Origin: Candidatus Kappaea frigidicola
Lineage (GTDB): Bacteria; Omnitrophota; Gorgyraeia; JAGLLT01
Length of the DNA: 42,295 nt
Assembly (NCBI GenBank): GCA_030765555.1
Contig: JAVCCI010000027.1
Location: 1 to 42,295 of the forward strand
Direction: 5' to 3'
Part shown: positions 3,216-39,801 of the stretch, in pieces
Position numbering within the stretch: position 1 is the stretch's first letter
Layout: every line of letters starts with the position of its first letter
Notes under the pieces: model-generated
Database searches by the model: none
What the model was told of the DNA's origin: nothing
What the model saw: the letters and a program-made list of their open reading frames with translations, nothing else
Translations under genes and position numbers: made by a program

Positions 3216-3302
3216 GGGCGAGTGGTGGAATGGCAGACACGTGGGACTTAAAATCCCATGGATGAATAATCCGTGTGGGTTCGACTCCCACCTCGCCCAC
3301 CA
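3216..3302 (+). tRNA. tRNA-Leu(TAA)
   Basis: Acceptor GGGCGAG/CTCGCCC, anticodon stem-loop TGGGA-CTTAAAA-TCCCA, long variable arm, encoded CCA. Confidence 0.95.
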
Positions 3303-3382
3303 TTCTACTTCGCCAAGCAACTTTCGTCCTTGGCTTCGTAGGAATGCGAAAATGTAAGCCCGAGTGCATGGCAAATGGCTAA
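3295..3382 (+). repeat. Post-tRNA direct repeat, copy 1
   Basis: gcccaccattctacttcgccaagcaactttcgtccttggcttcgtaggaatgcg... near-identical to 3682-3769. Confidence 0.9.
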
Positions 3383-3441
3383 GGGCATATAAAAAACAAT
3401 AACCAAGACAAAACAGGATTAATCCCGCCAGAGGCGGACAG

Positions 3442-3458
3442 GGATTAAGACGCTCATT
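3442..3458 (+). repeat. 17-bp inverted repeat, left arm (tRNA-Val unit)
   Basis: GGATTAAGACGCTCATT; exact reverse complement at 3920-3936. Confidence 0.9.
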
Positions 3459-3612
3459 ATTGACAAATTGTTGGTGAGCTCTAAGGATTAAGTAAAAAGC
3501 AAAAAAACATAGAAAAAAACAAAAAGATAATTATTCGCTTGTGACTTATGACTGGTGTCTTGTGACTTGTGTTTTGTAACTTGTGACTTAAATATTAGAA
3601 TGAGCGAAGGTG

Positions 3613-3689
3613 GGGCGCATGGCGCAGTTGGTTAGCGTGCTTGCATGACATGCAAGAGGTCATAGGTTCGAATCCTATTGTGCCCACCA
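3613..3689 (+). tRNA. tRNA-Val(GAC)
   Basis: Acceptor GGGCGCA/TGTGCCC, anticodon stem-loop CTTGC-ATGACAT-GCAAG, T-arm ATAGG-TTCGAAT-CCTAT, encoded CCA. Confidence 0.95.
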
Positions 3690-3769
3690 TTCTACTTCGC
3701 CAAGCAACTTTCGTCCTTGGCTTCGTAGGAATGCGGAAATGTAAGAGCGGGTGCATGGCAAATAGCTAA
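3682..3769 (+). repeat. Post-tRNA direct repeat, copy 2
   Basis: Copy of 3295-3382 with few substitutions; hairpin CTAC-ttc-GCCAAG...CTTGGC-ttc-GTAG. Confidence 0.9.
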
Positions 3770-3919
3770 TAGCTAATAGCGAAGGGCTAAGGGCAAATAG
3801 CGTAGAGCGGATAAAAAAACAATAACCAAGACAAAACAGGATTAAGAATTAAGGATTAAGTTAGAAGCAGGATTTGAGTACAGAATTAAGTAAAAAAACT
3901 TAATTCTTAGAGCGAATAA

Positions 3920-3936
3920 AATGAGCGTCTTAATCC
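3920..3936 (-). repeat. 17-bp inverted repeat, right arm (tRNA-Val unit)
   Basis: AATGAGCGTCTTAATCC; exact reverse complement of 3442-3458. Confidence 0.9.
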
Positions 3937-3954
3937 TAATCGAGGAAATACGTT

Positions 3955-5661
3955 ATGAAGTTAGATACTCTAAGGCATTCAGCCTCGCACGTTATGGCTC
4001 AGGCCGTAAAAAGCATGTATAAAAATGTAAAGCTGGGGATAGGTCCGTCAATCGAGAATGGGTTTTATTATGATTTTGATCTTGATCAACCCATAAAAGA
4101 AGAGGATTTGCCTCGCATTGAAAAGAAAATGCGTGAAATTATAAAGAAGAACTATAAATTTGAAAAAGAGACTATTTCTAAAGATGAAGCCAAAAGACTC
4201 TTTAAAGATTTAAATGAGACGTATAAATTAGAATTGATTGATGAGCTTGAGGATGGAGAAATCTCTATATATAAAGATGGTGATTTTATTGATCTCTGTA
4301 AAGGGCCTCACCTTAATTCGACTGCTGAGATAGGGCATTTCAAGCTTTTAAATGTAGCCGGAGCTTATTGGAGGGGAAGCGAAAAGAATCCGCAGCTTAC
4401 TCGAATATACGCTACAGCTTTTGAAACAAAAAAAGAATTAGACGATTATTTGAATAGGCTTGAAGAAGCTAAAAAGAGAGATCACCGAAAAGGATTTGCT
4501 CTAGGATATTTTAGTATGCATCAGGAAGTTGGGCCAGGCTTGGTGGTATATCATCCTAAGGGAGCCTTATTGAGAAGTCTCATCGTGGATTATTTAAAAA
4601 ATGAGCACCTCAGACGTGGTTATCAGATGGTTTTAGGGCCCCACATAATGAAGTCGGATATCTGGAAGACTTCCGGGCATGCTGATTTTTACAAGGAAAA
4701 TATGTATTTCTTTGATATAGAAGGGCAAGAGTATGTGGTTAAGCCCATGAATTGTCCTGCGCATATTTTAGTTTACGCATCAAAGATTAGAAGTTATAAT
4801 GATTTACCTATAAGGTTCTTTGAGTTGGGTACTGTTTACAGGCATGAGAAGTCAGGAGTTTTACACGGACTGCTTAGGGTTAGAGGCTTTACACAGGATG
4901 ATGCACATATTTTTTGCATGCGAAATCAGCTGCAAGAAGAGATAGTGGGGGTAATCAAATTTGTTAAAGCTGTCATGGCTAACTTTGGGTTTACTGATTA
5001 CGAATACGAAGTTAGTACTCGTCCTGAAAAATATATCGGCTTAGAGCATGATTGGGATAATGCCGAAAAGATACTTATTCAATCATTAGAAGCTGAGGGT
5101 GAAAAATTTGACATCAATGAAAAAGATGGAGCTTTTTACGGTCCCAAGATAGATATTAAGATTAAAGATGCCTTGGGAAGACCATGGCAGTGCGCAACTA
5201 TTCAATGTGATTTTGCTCTGCCGGAACGCTTCGATTTATCATACATAGATAATCAAGGTAAGAAGCAGCGTCCCGTTATGCTACATAGAGTAATCGTAGG
5301 CAGTATAGAGCGCTTTATGGGTGTGCTGCTGGAACATTATGATTTTGATTTACCTTTATGGTTGGCGCCGGTTCAGATAAGGATGCTTCCGGTTACATCA
5401 AGAGCTCAAGAGTTCGCGTTGGAAGTTAGTGAGAAATTGAATACTACCTATAGAGTTGAAGTTGATTTAAATAATGAAACCCTAGGTAATAAAATTAGAA
5501 AAGCACAACAGGAAAAAATTCCTTATATGGTTATTTTGGGTGACCGAGAAATAAAGAATAATACTCTTTCGATTAGATCGCTAAAAAAAGGTGATTTAGG
5601 TAATATTAATTTAGATGAATTTGTAAAAGTATTGGCCGAGGATTTATTGAACAGGAGGTGA
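3955..5661 (+). CDS. thrS: Threonyl-tRNA synthetase lacking the N-terminal TGS domain
   Basis: Starts directly at LRHSASHVMAQAV (editing domain); class II motifs and C-terminal anticodon-binding domain present. Confidence 0.95.
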   Translation: MKLDTLRHSASHVMAQAVKSMYKNVKLGIGPSIENGFYYDFDLDQPIKEEDLPRIEKKMREIIKKNYKFEKETISKDEAKRLFKDLNETYKLELIDELEDGEISIYKDGDFIDLCKGPHLNSTAEIGHFKLLNVAGAYWRGSEKNPQLTRIYATAFETKKELDDYLNRLEEAKKRDHRKGFALGYFSMHQEVGPGLVVYHPKGALLRSLIVDYLKNEHLRRGYQMVLGPHIMKSDIWKTSGHADFYKENMYFFDIEGQEYVVKPMNCPAHILVYASKIRSYNDLPIRFFELGTVYRHEKSGVLHGLLRVRGFTQDDAHIFCMRNQLQEEIVGVIKFVKAVMANFGFTDYEYEVSTRPEKYIGLEHDWDNAEKILIQSLEAEGEKFDINEKDGAFYGPKIDIKIKDALGRPWQCATIQCDFALPERFDLSYIDNQGKKQRPVMLHRVIVGSIERFMGVLLEHYDFDLPLWLAPVQIRMLPVTSRAQEFALEVSEKLNTTYRVEVDLNNETLGNKIRKAQQEKIPYMVILGDREIKNNTLSIRSLKKGDLGNINLDEFVKVLAEDLLNRR

Positions 5662-6437: not shown

Positions 6438-6806
6438 ATGCCTAAAGTAAAACATGCGCCTGCATCAAAGAAAAGAAAAAAGCGGGTGCTAAAGGCGGTA
6501 AAGGGTGCTAGAGGCGGGCGTAGTAAGCTTATCATAAGCGCCAAAGAAACTCTTAATAGAGCGCTTGCCTATGCATATAGGGATCGTAAGGTTAAGAAGA
6601 GGGAATATAGAACTCTCTGGATAACTAGAATTACAGCAGCTTGCAAGTTGCATGCTATAGGTTATTCAAAATTTATTAATGGATTAACTAAGGTCAAGAT
6701 TGTTTTGAATAGGAAAATGTTGGCTGAAGTTGCTGCAACTGATGACAACGCTTTTTCAAAACTAGTAAAATTAGTTAAAGAATCAGGATTAAAAAAGCAG
6801 GATTAA
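6438..6806 (+). CDS. rplT: Ribosomal protein bL20
   Basis: AKGARGGRSKL.., AYRDRKVKKREYRTLWITRI motifs. Confidence 0.95.
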   Translation: MPKVKHAPASKKRKKRVLKAVKGARGGRSKLIISAKETLNRALAYAYRDRKVKKREYRTLWITRITAACKLHAIGYSKFINGLTKVKIVLNRKMLAEVAATDDNAFSKLVKLVKESGLKKQD

Positions 6807-6816
6807 GGATTAAGAC

Positions 6817-6844
6817 GCTCACGATTGACGAATTGTTAGTGAGC
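6817..6844 (+). repeat. 28-nt hairpin module of intergenic element, copy C
   Basis: GCTCACGATTGACGAATTGTTAGTGAGC; same-length relatives at 3452-3479, 38040-38067 and 39526-39553, each flanked by GGATTAAG words. Confidence 0.85.
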
Positions 6845-6898
6845 TTAAAGGATTAAGTAAAAAGCAAAATCAAGTGAAATATAGGATTAAGAAAATAA

Positions 6899-7036
6899 AT
6901 GAAAACTTTTAAGGATCTTATTATATTAAGTAATGATTTAAATTATCTGGATGAAGCTGCAAGTGATAAAGTAAATAGCATGTGTGAGGAAATAGGAAAA
7001 ATGCTTTATGGTTTACAGAATAAGCTTAATCCTTAG
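6899..7036 (+). pseudogene. Relic of S23/IVP-type four-helix-bundle protein
   Basis: Translation MKTFKDLIILSNDLNYLDEAASDKVNSMCEEIGKMLYGLQNKLNP resembles N-terminus joined to C-terminal helix of S23-type four-helix-bundle proteins; lies inside repeat element. Confidence 0.6.
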
Positions 7037-7065
7037 AGCGAATAAAATGAGCGTCTTAATTCTTA

Positions 7066-7090
7066 GAGTGAGCGAATGCGAACGTCTTGA
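7066..7090 (+). repeat. Right-end module of intergenic element
   Basis: GAGTGAGCGAATGCGAACGTCTTGA; relatives at 21102-21126, 38174-38198 and 39777-39801. Confidence 0.85.
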
Positions 7091-7142: not shown

Positions 7143-7451
7143 ATGAATAAAGCTATAATAATGGCAAAAATCAAAAGACAGCAAGCAGAATTAGGTGAAA
7201 TCATAGCTGAAATCAGCAAAGATAGAAGGTTGAATAATATTTTGCGTGTGTTAGAGGTAAGGTATAGGGAAACAGAGCAGCTTTTAGATGCTATGGGTGA
7301 TAAGAGTTATATTCCAAAAGGTATTGAGGACTTAGATGCTCTTGATGAAATTAAAATAACAGAAAAGAAAATCGGTAAGATTAAAACCAGCATTAAGAAA
7401 ATGAAGCAACTGGACAAAGAAAAGAAGAAAATAGAAAAGAAGCTGAAATAA
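7143..7451 (+). CDS. Small coiled-coil hypothetical protein upstream of pheS
   Basis: AAGGAGG upstream; highly charged helical protein. Confidence 0.7.
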   Translation: MNKAIIMAKIKRQQAELGEIIAEISKDRRLNNILRVLEVRYRETEQLLDAMGDKSYIPKGIEDLDALDEIKITEKKIGKIKTSIKKMKQLDKEKKKIEKKLK

Positions 7452-7455
7452 TTTT

Positions 7456-8460
7456 ATGCTTAAGGAGATAAAAGAATTACAGAAAGCTGCTTTTTCTGAG
7501 CTTGATAAAGCTCAATGCTTAAAAGATATAGAAAAAATAAGAATAAAATATTTAGGAAGAAAGAGTAAGCTTAGTCAAATTTTAAAAGGCCTCAAAGACT
7601 TAACGGCTGAACAAAAAGCAGACGTTGGTAAAGCTGCTAATGTTTTAAAGCAGAAGATTAATAAGGAAATTGAGGCCAATATAAGTGCATCTAATGAATC
7701 TAGCTTAGGAGCTAATATTGATGTTACAACCCCAGGCATTAAAAATGCATGTGGTCATCTGCACCCAATTACGAAAACTATATATGAAATATGTGATGTT
7801 TTTGTGTCCTTAGGCTTCAATGTGGTAGAGGGGCCCGAAGCAGAGAAAGAGCGTTATAATTTTGAAGCGCTGAATATTCCTCTTGATCATCCAGCTAGAG
7901 ATGCTTTTGATACATTTTATATTAAAGATGATCTTCTCTTGCGTTCGCATACTTCCCCTGTTCAAGCTAGAGTAATGGAAAAAGAGTCACCTCCTCTTGC
8001 TATCATTGTACCCGGCAAGGTCTACAGGCCGGATGCTGTAGATGCCACCCATTCGTTTATGTTCCATCAAGTAGAAGGCCTCTTAGTGGATAAGAATATA
8101 ACTTTTTCAGATTTAAAAGGAACTCTTTCTGTTTTTGCTAGAAAGATGTTTGGTAAGGATGTTAAAGTAAGATTTCGACCTCATTTCTTTCCATTTACAG
8201 AACCAAGTGCCGATTTAGATGTTTCCTGTTTTGTATGTAATCAGAAAGGTTGCCGTGTTTGTTCTAATACCGGGTGGCTTGAAATAGGTGGTGCTGGTAT
8301 GGTTGATCCAGAGGTTTTTAAAGTTGTAAAGTATGATTATAATGAGTTTAGTGGATTTGCTTTTGGTATGGGTGTGGAAAGAATAGCTATGTTGAAATAT
8401 GGTGTAAATGATATTAGATTATTTTTTGAAAATGATTACAGATTTTTAAAACAATTTTAA
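7456..8460 (+). CDS. pheS: Phenylalanyl-tRNA synthetase alpha subunit
   Basis: HPITKTIYEICDVFVSLGFNVVEGPE; FRPHFFPFTEPSAD; GFAFGMGVERIAMLKYGVNDIR. Confidence 0.96.
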   Translation: MLKEIKELQKAAFSELDKAQCLKDIEKIRIKYLGRKSKLSQILKGLKDLTAEQKADVGKAANVLKQKINKEIEANISASNESSLGANIDVTTPGIKNACGHLHPITKTIYEICDVFVSLGFNVVEGPEAEKERYNFEALNIPLDHPARDAFDTFYIKDDLLLRSHTSPVQARVMEKESPPLAIIVPGKVYRPDAVDATHSFMFHQVEGLLVDKNITFSDLKGTLSVFARKMFGKDVKVRFRPHFFPFTEPSADLDVSCFVCNQKGCRVCSNTGWLEIGGAGMVDPEVFKVVKYDYNEFSGFAFGMGVERIAMLKYGVNDIRLFFENDYRFLKQF

Positions 8461-8513
8461 ATGAAGACGCAATTTATGGAATGTAATAAACATAAACTGC
8501 TTGTCTGAATTTA
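8460..8513 (+). repeat. 54-bp direct repeat, copy 1 (pheS-pheT intergenic)
   Basis: aatgaagacgcaatttatggaatgtaataaacataaa..tctgaattta; about 50/54 identical to 8544-8597. Confidence 0.9.
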
Positions 8514-8543
8514 CCTCGCATTCAGAAATTGGGTGTAGTGGCA

Positions 8544-8597
8544 AATGAAGACGCAATTTATGGAATGTAATAAACATAAATTGTATATCTGAATTTA
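8544..8597 (+). repeat. 54-bp direct repeat, copy 2
   Basis: See copy 1; period 84 bp. Confidence 0.9.
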
Positions 8598-8639
8598 TCC
8601 CGAAAAGTGTGCTTCTTTGAGGGAATCTATAATCGGGAT
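8597..8639 (+). ncRNA. Stem-loop element shared with 30539-30580
   Basis: ATCCCGA...TCGGGAT outer stem, internal GTGCTTCTTTGAGG motif. Confidence 0.5.
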
Positions 8640-8702: not shown

Positions 8703-10772
8703 ATGCTAATAAGTTATAATTGGTTAAAAGATTTTACGAATATTAAGGATAGTCCTGAAAGACTTGCCCATATGCTTACTATGGCTGGAATAGAAGTGAG
8801 TTCACTTGAAAAAATAAATGACGATTTCATTTTTGATGCAGAAATTACGCCAAACAGACCAGATTTATTATGCACAAAAGGAATTGCCAGAGAAGCCGCT
8901 TGTTTAATGCATAGTGAGTTTAATGATCCTTTTAGTTTTAGCGTAGAAGACAGGCCTTCTGGCAGTAGTATTGATCTTGAAATTAGACAAAAAGAAGTTT
9001 GCTCTAGGTATAGTGCAACTCTTATTAAAGATATTCAGGTTAAGGTATCGGATGAAAAAATTACAAGACGTCTTTCGGCGCTAGGTTTGAGGCCAGTCAA
9101 CAGCATTGTTGATATAACTAATTACTTTCTTTTGGGCTGGGGTCAGCCTATGCACGCCTTTGATTATGATAAAATAGAGGGTCATAAAATCATTGTTCGT
9201 TATGCTAGGAAAGGCGAAAAGCTTTTAGCTTTAGATGGAAAAGAGTATGAATTAGATGAAACTATATTAATTATTGCCGACGCAAAAAAACCCATTGCAA
9301 TTGCTGGGGTAATAGGGGGCGTCAATACAGAAATTGGTTTGGAAACAAAAAATGTGTTATTGGAATGTGCTAGCTTTGACTCTATTCAAATAAGAAAGGC
9401 CGCGCGAAAATTAGGAATTTCAACTGATTCATCATATAGATTTGAAAGAGGTGTTCCCATTGCCTCTGTGGGTGAAATATCTCTGGCGGCTGCATCTTTC
9501 ATTCAGCAAAAAGCTGGTGGTAAAATCACCGATAATATAGACATATCTAGTCTTGAGTCAGAAAAAATTACCTGCACTTTAAGGCTTTCTGAGATTGAAA
9601 GAATTTTGGGAATTGTCATTTTGCAGGATGATGTTAAGAGAATTTTAGTTTCACTTGGCTTTGCCATAGAAAATGAGACTCAAGGTTCTATGGATGTTAC
9701 CTCACCCTATTTTAGGGAAGATGCTAAGCGAGAGATAGATTTAATAGAAGAAATTGCACGTATATATGGATACGATAAAATGCCATCAACAATTGCTAAG
9801 GTGAGCAGCAGAGAGATTAGCAAATATAAATCATTATCAGGGATAATTGATGAAACAACAAGATTTACAATTAAGAAAAAAATTTGCCAGGCATTATGTG
9901 CTTGTGGCTTAAATGAAGTAATTACTTATAGCATGATTAGTGATAAGGAATCAGCTGTTTTTAGTTATAAATCTGATGAAATTGTTAAGCTTCAAAAGGC
10001 TCTAAGTAGCCAGCAGGAAGTAATGCGACCAACTCTTTTAAGTGGCCTTATGCAGGCGTTAAGCTGGAATATTAATAGGCAAATGGATGATATTGGTGTT
10101 TTTGAATTAGGGGATGTATTTGTAAATCAAAATCATAAATTTTCTGAAAAATTAAATGTAGCTTTTGGTTTATGTGGTAAGAAATATATAAGTGATTGGA
10201 AGCACAAACCCAAAGAAGTTGATTTTTATGATTTAAAAGGTATTCTTGAAAATTTATTTGAAACCTTAGGTATTGAGGAAGTTAAATTTTTAGAATGCAA
10301 AGATTCATATTTTTTAAAAGGTGAGAGGGCTAAAGTTAGTTATAAAAATAAAATTATTGCTAAATTTGGCAAACTTACCAAGGAAGTTGTTTCTATATAT
10401 GATGTTGATAAAGATGTTTATGTAGCTGAAGTATATTTAGAAGATATACTTGGCGATGTATGTTTAGAAAAGAAATTTGAACCTATAGCAAAATTTCCAG
10501 CTGTCATTAGAGACTTAGCCGTAATTGTAAAAACTGGTTTGTCGACGAAAGAAATTATTGATGAGATTAAGAAGACGGGCAAGCATCTCATTAAAGAGGT
10601 TAGTTTATTTGATGTTTATGAAGGCAAGCAGATACCTGCTGGGTATTTAAGCTTGGCTTTTTCTATTAAATATCAGGCTGAAGACAGAACTTTAGTTGAT
10701 GAAGAAGTTGACGAAATTCAAACTCAGATTCAAAAAGTTTTAGTTGAAAATCTTAAGGCTCAAATTAGGTAG
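8703..10772 (+). CDS. pheT: Phenylalanyl-tRNA synthetase beta subunit lacking the N-terminal EMAP-II-like tRNA-binding domain
   Basis: MLISYNWLKDFTN...GIEVSSLEKINDDFIFDAEITPNRPDLL; core and C-terminal FDX-ACB domain present. Confidence 0.95.
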   Translation: MLISYNWLKDFTNIKDSPERLAHMLTMAGIEVSSLEKINDDFIFDAEITPNRPDLLCTKGIAREAACLMHSEFNDPFSFSVEDRPSGSSIDLEIRQKEVCSRYSATLIKDIQVKVSDEKITRRLSALGLRPVNSIVDITNYFLLGWGQPMHAFDYDKIEGHKIIVRYARKGEKLLALDGKEYELDETILIIADAKKPIAIAGVIGGVNTEIGLETKNVLLECASFDSIQIRKAARKLGISTDSSYRFERGVPIASVGEISLAAASFIQQKAGGKITDNIDISSLESEKITCTLRLSEIERILGIVILQDDVKRILVSLGFAIENETQGSMDVTSPYFREDAKREIDLIEEIARIYGYDKMPSTIAKVSSREISKYKSLSGIIDETTRFTIKKKICQALCACGLNEVITYSMISDKESAVFSYKSDEIVKLQKALSSQQEVMRPTLLSGLMQALSWNINRQMDDIGVFELGDVFVNQNHKFSEKLNVAFGLCGKKYISDWKHKPKEVDFYDLKGILENLFETLGIEEVKFLECKDSYFLKGERAKVSYKNKIIAKFGKLTKEVVSIYDVDKDVYVAEVYLEDILGDVCLEKKFEPIAKFPAVIRDLAVIVKTGLSTKEIIDEIKKTGKHLIKEVSLFDVYEGKQIPAGYLSLAFSIKYQAEDRTLVDEEVDEIQTQIQKVLVENLKAQIR

Positions 10773-10817: not shown

Positions 10818-10980
10818 AGGAAAACAATTCCCTGCCTTGTGCGTGAAGGGCGCATAGGTTTGAGCCAACACCATTTTAAGGGGAACCTAACTTCATGATG
10901 CCTGAGGGCAGAATGAGAGGGTGCCCACTTAGTAGATTGGGTTCAAAACTATCACTTTCTCACGGCTATGGCGGGGATTT
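10818..10980 (+). ncRNA. ssrS: 6S RNA
   Basis: Closing stem CCCUGCC/GGCGGGG and CGUGA/UCACG; conserved-looking GAGCCAACACCA, GGGGAACCUAACU, GGGCAGA, GCCCACUUAGUA, GGGUUCAAA blocks; about 160 nt; T run follows; located upstream of rarA. Confidence 0.82.
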
Positions 10981-10989
10981 TTTTATATT

Positions 10990-20755: not shown

Positions 20756-20836
20756 ATGCCTCTCTGGTTTATATTATTAGGTTTAACTATAATATTTTGC
20801 AGAACAAGCAAGAGACAAAACAGGATTAAGGATTAA
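20756..20836 (+). pseudogene. Truncated membrane-protein ORF interrupted by intergenic element
   Basis: AAGGAGA SD then MPLWFILLGLTIIFCRTSKRQNRIKD*; reading frame runs directly into the GGATTAAG repeat. Confidence 0.4.
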
Positions 20837-21126
20837 GAATTAAGGATTAAGTTAGAAGCAAGAAATAGCAAAGAGCTAATAGCAAATAGCGTATAGCGTA
20901 TAAAAAACAATAACCAAGACACAAGAGACAAGAAACAAATAATAACCAATGACCAAATTCAAATAACCAAACAAAAAGCAAAAGCAAAAAAAAGAACAAA
21001 AAACAAAAAGATAAGAGTTGCGGTTTGATTATTGGATATTGGAACTTAAATATTGTTTGTAACTTGTAACTTGTATCTTGTATCTTGTTTCTTAATTTTT
21101 AGAGTGAGCGAACGCGAATGTCTTGA
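20820..21126 (+). repeat. Intergenic modular element, copy D
   Basis: Starts ggattaaggattaag..., A/C-rich words, complementary T/G-rich words, ends GAGTGAGCGAACGCGAATGTCTTGA. Confidence 0.8.
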
Positions 21127-36856: not shown

Positions 36857-38023
36857 GTGCTTAAAAAGGATCCACATTTTTTCACATCAGAATCAGTTAC
36901 GGAAGGACATCCAGATAAGGTAGCTGATCAGATATCAGACGGAGTTCTTGATGCCATTTTTACAGAAGACCCGGATGGTAGAGTTGCCTGTGAAACCTTG
37001 GTAACTACTGGAATAGCTTTTGTGGCTGGTGAAATAACAACAAATTGCTATGTAGATGTTCCTACTGTAGTAAGGCAAACTTTAAAGGAAATAGGTTATA
37101 CCGAACCAGAGTATGGATATGATTACAAGACCATTGGTGTTATTACTGCTATTCAAGCACAGTCAAAAGATATAGCTATGGGAGTTGATACTGGTGGTGC
37201 TGGTGATCAGGGTATGATGTTTGGCTATGCTACAAATGAGACCAAAGAATTGATGCCAATGCCTATTTTGCTTGCCCACAAGCTAACTAGGGAGTTAAGC
37301 AGAGTTAGAAAAGAAAAAAAGGTAAATTATCTTAGGCCTGATGGTAAGTCTCAGGTTACTATAGAATATGATAATGCGAAACCTAAAAGAGTTGAGGCTG
37401 TTGTTTTGAGTGCTCACCATTCTCCAAAAGCAGATATAGAAATGATTAGGAAAGATCTTAAAAAAATAGTAATTGATAAGATAATTCCTGAAAACTTAAT
37501 AGATGCCAAGACAAAAATATATATTAATCCTACTGGTAGATTTGCAGTTGGAGGCCCTGTGGCCGACACTGGTTTAACTGGTAGAAAGATTATTGTTGAT
37601 ACTTATGGTGGTGTTGGAAGCCATGGTGGAGGCGCGTTTTCAGGTAAAGACCCAACGAAGGTTGATAGGTCGGCTTCATACTATGCCAGATATATAGCAA
37701 AGAATGTAGTAGCTGCTAAGTTGGCTGATAGGTGTGAAATCCAATTAGCTTATGCTATTGGTGTAGCTGAGCCAGTTTCTGTTATGATTAATACTTTTGG
37801 TACAGGCAAAATATCTGATGTTACTATAGGCAAGCTTGTACGTGAAAATTTTAATATGACACCAAGAGGCATTATCGAAGAATTACATCTAAGAAGACCC
37901 ATCTATAAGAAGACGGCAGCCTATGGACATTTCGGAAGAGAATGTGAAGACGGCTTTAATTGGGAAATAACTGATAAAGCAGATATTCTAAAAAAAAGTG
38001 CTAAACAATCATCAAAAGAATAG
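36857..38023 (+). CDS. metK: S-adenosylmethionine synthetase (GTG start)
   Basis: [48 protein letters not shown]. Confidence 0.97.
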
Positions 38024-38198
38024 GTTTAAGGATTAAGACGCTCACCAGTAATAAATTGATAACGAGCTTTAAGGATTAAGTTACAAGTAAAAGTTATACC
38101 CTTTTACCCTTTCGGGCACAAGCAAGACACAAGTCACAAACAAAAAGCAAAAGAACAAAAAAGTAAAAAAATAGAGTGAGAGAACGCGAATATTTTGA
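38024..38198 (+). repeat. Intergenic modular element, copy E
   Basis: ggattaagac + 28-nt module 38040-38067 + ...; right-end module 38174-38198. Confidence 0.8.
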
Positions 38199-39504: not shown

Positions 39505-39801
39505 AACAGGATTAAGGATTAAGGCGCTCACCATCGACAAGCTGACGGTGAGCTCTAAGGATTAAGTTAAAAACAAGAAATAAGATACAAGTTACAAGAA
39601 ACAAGATATACCCTAACGGGCACAGGCAAACAATTTCCAATAATCAATAATCAATCATCAAACAGTTTCTCTTGTTTGATTTTAACTTGGTTATTCGAAT
39701 TTGGTCATTGGTTATTATTTGGTTATTGTTTCTTGTCCCTTGGTTATTTTTTTATCCGCTAAACGCTAAAAAAATAGATTGAGCGAATGCGAACGTCTTA
39801 A
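39505..39801 (+). repeat. Intergenic modular element, copy F
   Basis: ggattaaggc + 28-nt module 39526-39553 + word tracts; right end GATTGAGCGAATGCGAACGTCTTAA. Confidence 0.8.

Follow-up and report, generated by a model that had tools for sequence, protein, structure and literature searches.

A probable relic of an S23-type four-helix-bundle element with inverted heptamer arms in Candidatus Kappaea frigidicola

The S23/IVP proteins, annotated as 'four helix bundle protein' and abbreviated here as 4HB, form a very widespread family whose function is unknown. They are encoded in 23S rRNA intervening sequences (IVS), for instance that of Coxiella burnetii, in which an S23 open reading frame (ORF) is accompanied by terminal inverted repeats and past mobility is suspected but not shown (PMC4990558), and in some of the rRNA insertions of candidate phyla radiation (CPR) bacteria (PMC11270868). 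A separate group of sequences, the TAACTGA-type heptamers, forms patchily distributed intergenic arrays in Beggiatoaceae, Cyanobacteria and Bacteroidetes; their mechanism is not known, they were read as translational regulators, and the main text describing them mentions neither helix bundle, S23 nor 23S rRNA (PMC4679880). The subject of this study is a short ORF in a contig of 42,295 nucleotides from Candidatus Kappaea frigidicola (JAVCCI010000027.1; hereafter the window, meaning that whole stretch), where a remnant of an S23 gene lies between inverted arms built of 7-nt repeats.

The relic ORF (6899-7036, forward strand) comprises 45 codons and a stop. A first-pass annotation, made from the letters alone, had read it as an S23-type protein that has lost its middle and keeps only its first residues and the C-terminal helix, and had suggested a profile search. 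Matches were obtained to TIGR02436 (profile positions 70-108 of 109, E=1e-4, 22.5 bits) and to PF05635, 23S_rRNA_IVP (positions 74-106, E=1.5e-4, 22.4 bits), both below the curated cut-offs of 24 and 33.8 bits because only the last third of the protein is left. Homology is decided by an intact relative in the same genome (G000; 916 kb in 91 contigs, 89% complete), since the two align. This single intact S23/IVP gene (C2:226-579, loci L001/L068) encodes 117 aa, scores above the curated cut-offs (134.6 bits with TIGR02436 and 147.4 bits with PF05635) and carries the same ends. This bears out the earlier suggestion that an IVP-like gene is the source of these elements or travels with them; neither of the outcomes named as refuting it, a missing profile match or intact genes never flanked by the repeats, was obtained. 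The window copy matches the intact element from the left arm through codon 7 (MKTFKDL), lacks the following 216 nt in frame and resumes at IILSNDLNYLDEA, after which the C-terminal helix, the stop and the right arm agree with few substitutions. On this alignment a chance match to the S23 family is excluded and the ORF represents residues 1-7 and the C-terminal helix of a 4HB protein, as had been proposed; being the intact element minus an in-frame segment, it is a relic. That it is instead a functional miniature peptide is extremely improbable: the in-frame deletion and the retained start and stop would suit such a peptide, but an in-frame outcome is expected for one in three deletions, the folded protein has four helices, of which only the last remains, and no second mini-ORF of the kind was seen among the own-genome copies read.

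The element around this ORF, judged by sequence to be a decayed copy of an S23/4HB mobile element, occupies about positions 6797-7090 of the forward strand, as delimited by its end-to-end alignment to the C2 element, save the one internal deletion, and by an outer right end (AGAGTGAGCGAAYGCGAACGTCTTGA) that recurs in several sister copies. It lies between rplT (ORF 6438-6806) and ORF 7143-7451, with the rplT stop codon inside its left edge, a placement that recurs elsewhere. The inverted ends previously indicated, ATTAAGACGCTCA at 6809-6821 and TGAGCGTCTTAAT at 7048-7060, were both located there, and the element reaches beyond them. The left arm (6797-6896) comprises AGGATTA-type 7-nt repeats and the hairpin GCTCAC...GTGAGC and is 97% identical to that of the intact copy over 70 nt. 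The right arm (7019-7090), inverted and overlapping the 3' end of the ORF, was recognised by repeat families D3 and D14 and by the orientation of the right-end motif, which is the same relative to the flanking genes in the own-genome copies, selected ones of which were read as stretches. The left 70 nt matches at least 8 places in G000 (80-100% identity) and the right end AGAGTGAGCGAAYGCGAACGTCTTGA is found in more places, nearly all of them without a gene.

The nearest described kind is the 23S rRNA IVS, likewise a small selfish unit whose sole gene is S23/IVP and whose terminal inverted repeats form a stem; this comparison draws on published descriptions of IVS. An IVS is defined by its position in rRNA and by excision by RNase III, whereas the present elements lie between protein genes and outside that definition. 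No rRNA match was identified in the window and the element sits between rplT and a hypothetical ORF, so that it is not an rRNA insertion; a search of Rfam gave no family matching the element.

Of 59 relatives of G000, 38 carry the 4HB gene, as do 233 of the 384 genomes sampled across the phylum; the copy number ranges from 1 to 11. In copies of the window's class, one 7-nt array precedes the start codon and another follows the stop, the downstream array being the inverted complement of the upstream one, and the heptamer unit differs at almost every locus. At 34 loci of this class self-identity at lag 7 was 0.377 upstream and 0.352 downstream, at lag 14 it was 0.349 and 0.332, and at lags that are not multiples of 7 it was 0.26-0.30. 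The same plan, one 4HB gene between mutually inverted 7-nt arrays, is present in about 20 bacterial phyla: 79 named loci, among them loci of Nitrospirota, Planctomycetota, Chloroflexota, Acidobacteriota, Bacteroidota, Elusimicrobiota, Patescibacteria, Verrucomicrobiota, Cloacimonadota and KSB1, gave lag-7 values of 0.362 and 0.366 versus 0.266 and 0.274 in 268 neighbour-gene controls, and a clear inverted match between the flanks at 58 loci versus 9 controls. Held-out loci (25) gave 0.395 and 0.361 with 20 inverted matches, and their controls, which comprise few genes, about 0.31 with 4 of 21; at least 2 of these 25 loci contain a second copy of the 4HB gene. These inverted matches, together with the pairing of the arms, indicate stem-forming terminal inverted repeats such as IVS have.

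An intact element measures about 450-600 bp and comprises an NNNYAGY array, a ribosome-binding region, one 4HB gene of about 120 aa and the inverted complement of the array. Copies occur at different sites; at L085, a separate locus in a different genus, the 4HB is 90.6% identical and the arms are related. At locus L102 (G056:C1:647000-657000) a reverse transcriptase (RT) gene (C1:651725-652339) is flanked on one side by an Avd-like 4HB that has no heptamer arms and on the other by a second 4HB with an array upstream, the armed and arm-less kinds being found within 7 kb.

Among the arms, 145 arrays are at least 60% identical at period 7, whereas other periods gave 6-35 arrays. When aligned in phase, the arrays share a core of pyrimidine-A-G-(mostly pyrimidine) that recurs at 7-nt intervals, read on the sense strand in upstream arms and as its complement in downstream arms. 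The information of this YAG core is 2.86 bits, versus 2.02 after within-array column permutation (100 runs, maximum 2.12) and 2.17 with random strands. Ribosome-binding sites were considered as the source of this purine-rich core and rejected: the core recurs in the downstream arms on the other strand, and information is lost when strands are assigned at random.

Within one element the arms have 12.3% of their 6-mers in common, compared with 2.8% for foreign arms; between elements the sharing is at background unless the proteins are closely related, and arm sequences are unrelated once the relative bit score of the proteins falls below about 0.6. Specific co-inheritance of arm sequence with the protein was discarded, as it holds only among close relatives. 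Predicted RNA pairing had a median of -50 kcal/mol for own arms versus -36 kcal/mol for swapped arms (p about 1e-16). From this combination of own-arm sharing and pairing with background sharing of foreign arms it follows that arm sequence turns over while period, core and complementarity are kept.

The protein was studied on the AlphaFold model of a Nitrospirota relative (L115), 60% identical to the G000 gene. The model is a four-helix bundle (pLDDT 97.4) whose structural matches include 2GSC (TM 0.92) and 2RLD, both of five chains, followed by Avd (4DWL) and Avd in the ribonucleoprotein of a diversity-generating retroelement (DGR; 8UB7, 8UBE). Sequence homology to Avd is also detectable (bAvd and DivGenRetAVD profiles), in line with the kinship of S23 and Avd stated in the first-pass annotation. 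Conservation peaks in and directly before helix 2 (P, E, Q, RR, S, N, E, G). No catalytic transposase or nuclease motif was identified in the 4HB in the family libraries searched. An anti-phage role was considered and set aside, PADLOC giving no match.

Mobility is indicated by six sites (A-F) that have an allele without the 4HB gene, and 36 plasmid records, cyanobacterial and a few others, contain the gene. At site A, the cas10|cmr3 junction in a type III-B locus, Picosynechococcus PCC 7003 (L199) carries the element and PCC 7002 has the empty allele (92.8% identity). Site B is occupied in Trichormus variabilis ATCC 29413 and Scytonema NIES-4073 and empty in Microchaete diplosiphon, Aulosira laxa and others (97.5-97.9% identity); here AAAAAGTAATTAAC of the empty allele corresponds to AAAAAGTAAT before and GTAATTAAC after the element, with the 5 bp GTAAT exactly duplicated. 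Site C is occupied in Nostoc C052 pC052_D, ATCC 53789 pNsp_a and strain N6 and empty in several sister plasmids; TTCTA flanks both sides of the pNsp_a copy, which makes a duplication probable. Site D, in ATCC 53789 pNsp_c, has a different arm family and 3 bp of exact overlap. Sites E and F are occupied in Calothrix brevissima and Nostoc edaphicum and empty in relatives, their junctions being blurred by divergence. Presence/absence alleles, as expected of a mobile element, are seen at sites A-F, with a target duplication that is exact at B (5 bp), probable at C and of 3 exact bp at D. At site B an arms-only version is present in Brasilonema and a remnant in Nostoc C052 pC052_E, a form of decay also seen in the relic element, where the loss is an internal deletion.

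The empty alleles at sites B and C have no heptamers, therefore the arms come with the gene; elsewhere among bacteria, too, inverted arms of this kind enclose intact S23 genes, in agreement with the first-pass annotation. This bears on the possibility that the arrays are older intergenic regulatory repeats or hot spots into which a host 4HB family was copied by recombination. Arms-only arrays in G000 and other genomes, and the regulatory interpretation of heptamers in PMC4679880, would suit it, but array-free empty alleles and arms that match far better within an element than between elements largely refute it, and it is considered very unlikely.

Two further insertions were observed beside these sites. 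On pANA02 of Anabaena sp. 90 (L198) a 4HB element is located inside cas6/cas4 of a type I-D CRISPR operon. In G001:C14 (L080) an element lies apparently inside a longer coding gene, an apparent gene disruption, and its own 4HB gene has a premature TAA.

Between co-directional genes the 4HB gene was found in the sense direction in 81 cases and never in antisense, and the held-out loci gave 19:0 (100:0 in total, with automatic ORF assignment). The G000 arms-only copies share the sense direction where it is readable. An antisense case was identified on a plasmid (L215), therefore the rule is not absolute. The bias is most likely due either to selection, the gene depending on the host operon transcript and decaying in place, or to an RNA-linked insertion step, which the data do not separate.

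Given these observations, the relic is probably the remnant of the sole gene of a small mobile element, a 4HB between inverted heptamer arms, in which a pentamer would read the arms and the enzyme would act in trans. The whole unit, arms included, inserts at intercistronic junctions, often at a stop codon, and lies in the direction of host transcription; the target is duplicated over a short length, which is 5 bp at the only site with an exact duplication. The sequences themselves show this architecture, the insertion as a unit and the decay, while arm binding and the enzyme are proposals. The 4HB pentamer may bind the arms of its own element in single-stranded form, RNA or DNA, each protomer taking one YAG of the 7-nt series in the manner of a TRAP-like register reader; RNA-type binding is proposed because the homologous Avd is a ring acting on RNA. 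TRAP-type ring proteins read (G/U)AG triplets at fixed spacing, with an unrelated fold and another spacing, and serve here as an analogy only. If reading is by period and core, arm sequence may drift provided that period, core and arm-arm pairing are kept. Once transcribed, the arms would pair into a stem that could be cut, as happens in the 23S rRNA IVS, and the message of the host would be spared. The element shows no recognisable enzyme for cutting and joining; this activity would presumably be supplied in trans.

Two sources of such an enzyme were evaluated, with counts that ignore phylogeny among the 59 relatives, which span 53 genera. The first is an HUH transposase (Y1/RAYT-type) that would read arm hairpins and move a non-autonomous unit in trans, with the 4HB as accessory. 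Y1 genes co-occur with the 4HB (36 of 38 genomes versus 12 of 21 without it, Fisher p=8e-4), copy numbers correlate (Spearman rho=0.51), the DDE_Tnp_1 control is found in only 10 of the 59 (6 with 4HB and 4 without), and hairpins such as the one of the window's left arm are present in G000 arms. However, the flanks of Y1 genes show no heptamer arms (lag-7 0.290 and 0.285), their strand bias between co-directional genes is weaker (15:6 sense), and two of the 59 genomes have the 4HB without Y1. The sole Y1 of G000 (RAYT-like; L067, G000:C70, reverse strand) is bounded by a different repeat of its own, GGGACAGGCTAC / GTAGCCTGTCCC. The exact 5-bp duplication at one site is also unlike Y1 transposition, which is known to make no target duplication. 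Movement by Y1 is therefore judged unlikely.

The second is a retroelement in which the 4HB would be the Avd-like partner of an RT in trans, RNA-level copying explaining the sense bias and the stop-codon junctions. Homology to Avd, an RT partner, the 100:0 orientation and the fast turnover of arm repeats fit this proposal, but no RVT_1 was found in G000, RT is not associated with the 4HB among the relatives (8 of 38 versus 5 of 21, p=1) nor correlated with it in copy number, and multi-copy genomes more than 90% complete have no RT. The RT hint of the first-pass annotation is accordingly not upheld, and the retroelement appears quite unlikely.

Several observations weigh against the small mobile element proposed here. 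The element carries no recognised moving enzyme, and one fifth to one quarter of the 4HB loci have no clear inverted match. Period 8 ranks second and some arms use 8-nt units, while distant family members (Avd in DGRs) lie outside heptamer arms. Only one target duplication is exact, the others being blurred by divergence or indels; the empty and occupied pairs are natural alleles, from which movement itself is deduced.

Other known systems share some of these features. DGR Avd has the same fold, detectable homology and solved relatives of five chains, whereas the present elements have no RT, template repeat or variable repeat. Repetitive extragenic palindromes (REP/REPIN) with their RAYT also occur as many short, palindromic, non-coding intergenic copies; in the present case the arms are degenerate 7-nt arrays that vary per element, the gene is a 4HB and not a Y1, the Y1 of G000 is bounded by a different repeat, and Y1 flanks show no period of 7. 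Miniature inverted-repeat transposable elements (MITE) have short inverted ends, arms-only copies and target duplication, but here the coding member carries only the 4HB, and no parent transposon with these ends was found in a search of the incomplete G000 that covered PF01609, which is absent, and Y1, whose single gene has other ends. The TAACTGA-type heptamers also form intergenic 7-nt arrays with other heptamers mixed in; their complement, TCAGTTA, agrees with the YAG core, and TAACTGA itself forms the arm of a 4HB element at L134, in an Acidobacteriaceae genome. No account of S23/4HB genes with heptamer arms was found in the literature searched, preprints and most subscription journals being outside that search.

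The window contains five other intergenic stretches with related ends and degenerate 7-nt arrays (AGGATTA, AATAGCN, ACAAGAN, CTTGTGA), all arms-only relatives without a 4HB gene and given here on the forward strand. The first (3442-3622; D1, D3; period-7 array 3538-3589) adjoins tRNA-Val and the second (3752-3941; D2, D14; array 3755-3809) is located upstream of ORF 3955-5661. The third (20813-21126) is a composite of several heptamer families, with arrays at 20822-21043 and 21057-21101 and right end D3. The others are at 38019-38198 (D1, D3) and 39505-39801 (D1, D3; arrays 39571-39606 and 39631-39664). An array scan of the window gave six arrays at period 7 and zero or one at periods 5, 6 and 8-12.

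A 114-nt stretch at 3278-3391 is repeated at 3665-3778 (87% identical), spanning the ends of tRNA-Leu (3216-3302) and tRNA-Val (3613-3689) and the downstream sequence; a hairpin-like CTTCGCCAAGC...GCTTCGTAG falls within it. The pair resembles a tRNA 3' flank that has been duplicated, the two copies being separated by arms-only elements. Two 60-nt direct repeats beginning AATGAAGACGCAATTTATGGAATG (8459-8602; 90% identical, spacing 84, not of period 7) sit between ORFs 7456-8460 and 8703-10772, and a 6S RNA gene was identified at 10826-10981 (Rfam RF00013, 79.2 bits).

A wider reading is tentative. The elements might be kingdom-wide single-gene mobile elements defined by arm period and YAG core and not by sequence, whose pentameric 4HB would engage its own transcript or single strand, each protomer reading one YAG, and would direct sense-strand, transcription-linked insertion at cistron junctions; the 23S rRNA IVS and Avd would then have arisen from them by specialisation, and most orphan bacterial heptamer arrays would be what is left of such elements. 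If true, a sole gene without recognisable transposase would represent an undescribed way of moving DNA, the orphan heptamer repeats would be explained, an evolutionary source for Avd would be suggested, and the old guess of rRNA IVS mobility would become testable. The domains in a figure legend of a CRISPR survey include 23S rRNA IVP (PMC10910872), and the insertions in cas operons (L198, L199) could explain such IVP-CRISPR links. They are a warning on guilt by association, as the 4HB is present in CRISPR operons (cas10/cmr3, cas6/cas4) simply as insertions. Direct tests of a family whose architecture, as described here, covers about 20 phyla are possible in cyanobacteria that can be cultured and that offer natural pairs of occupied and empty sites (PCC 7003 and PCC 7002; T. 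variabilis and relatives).
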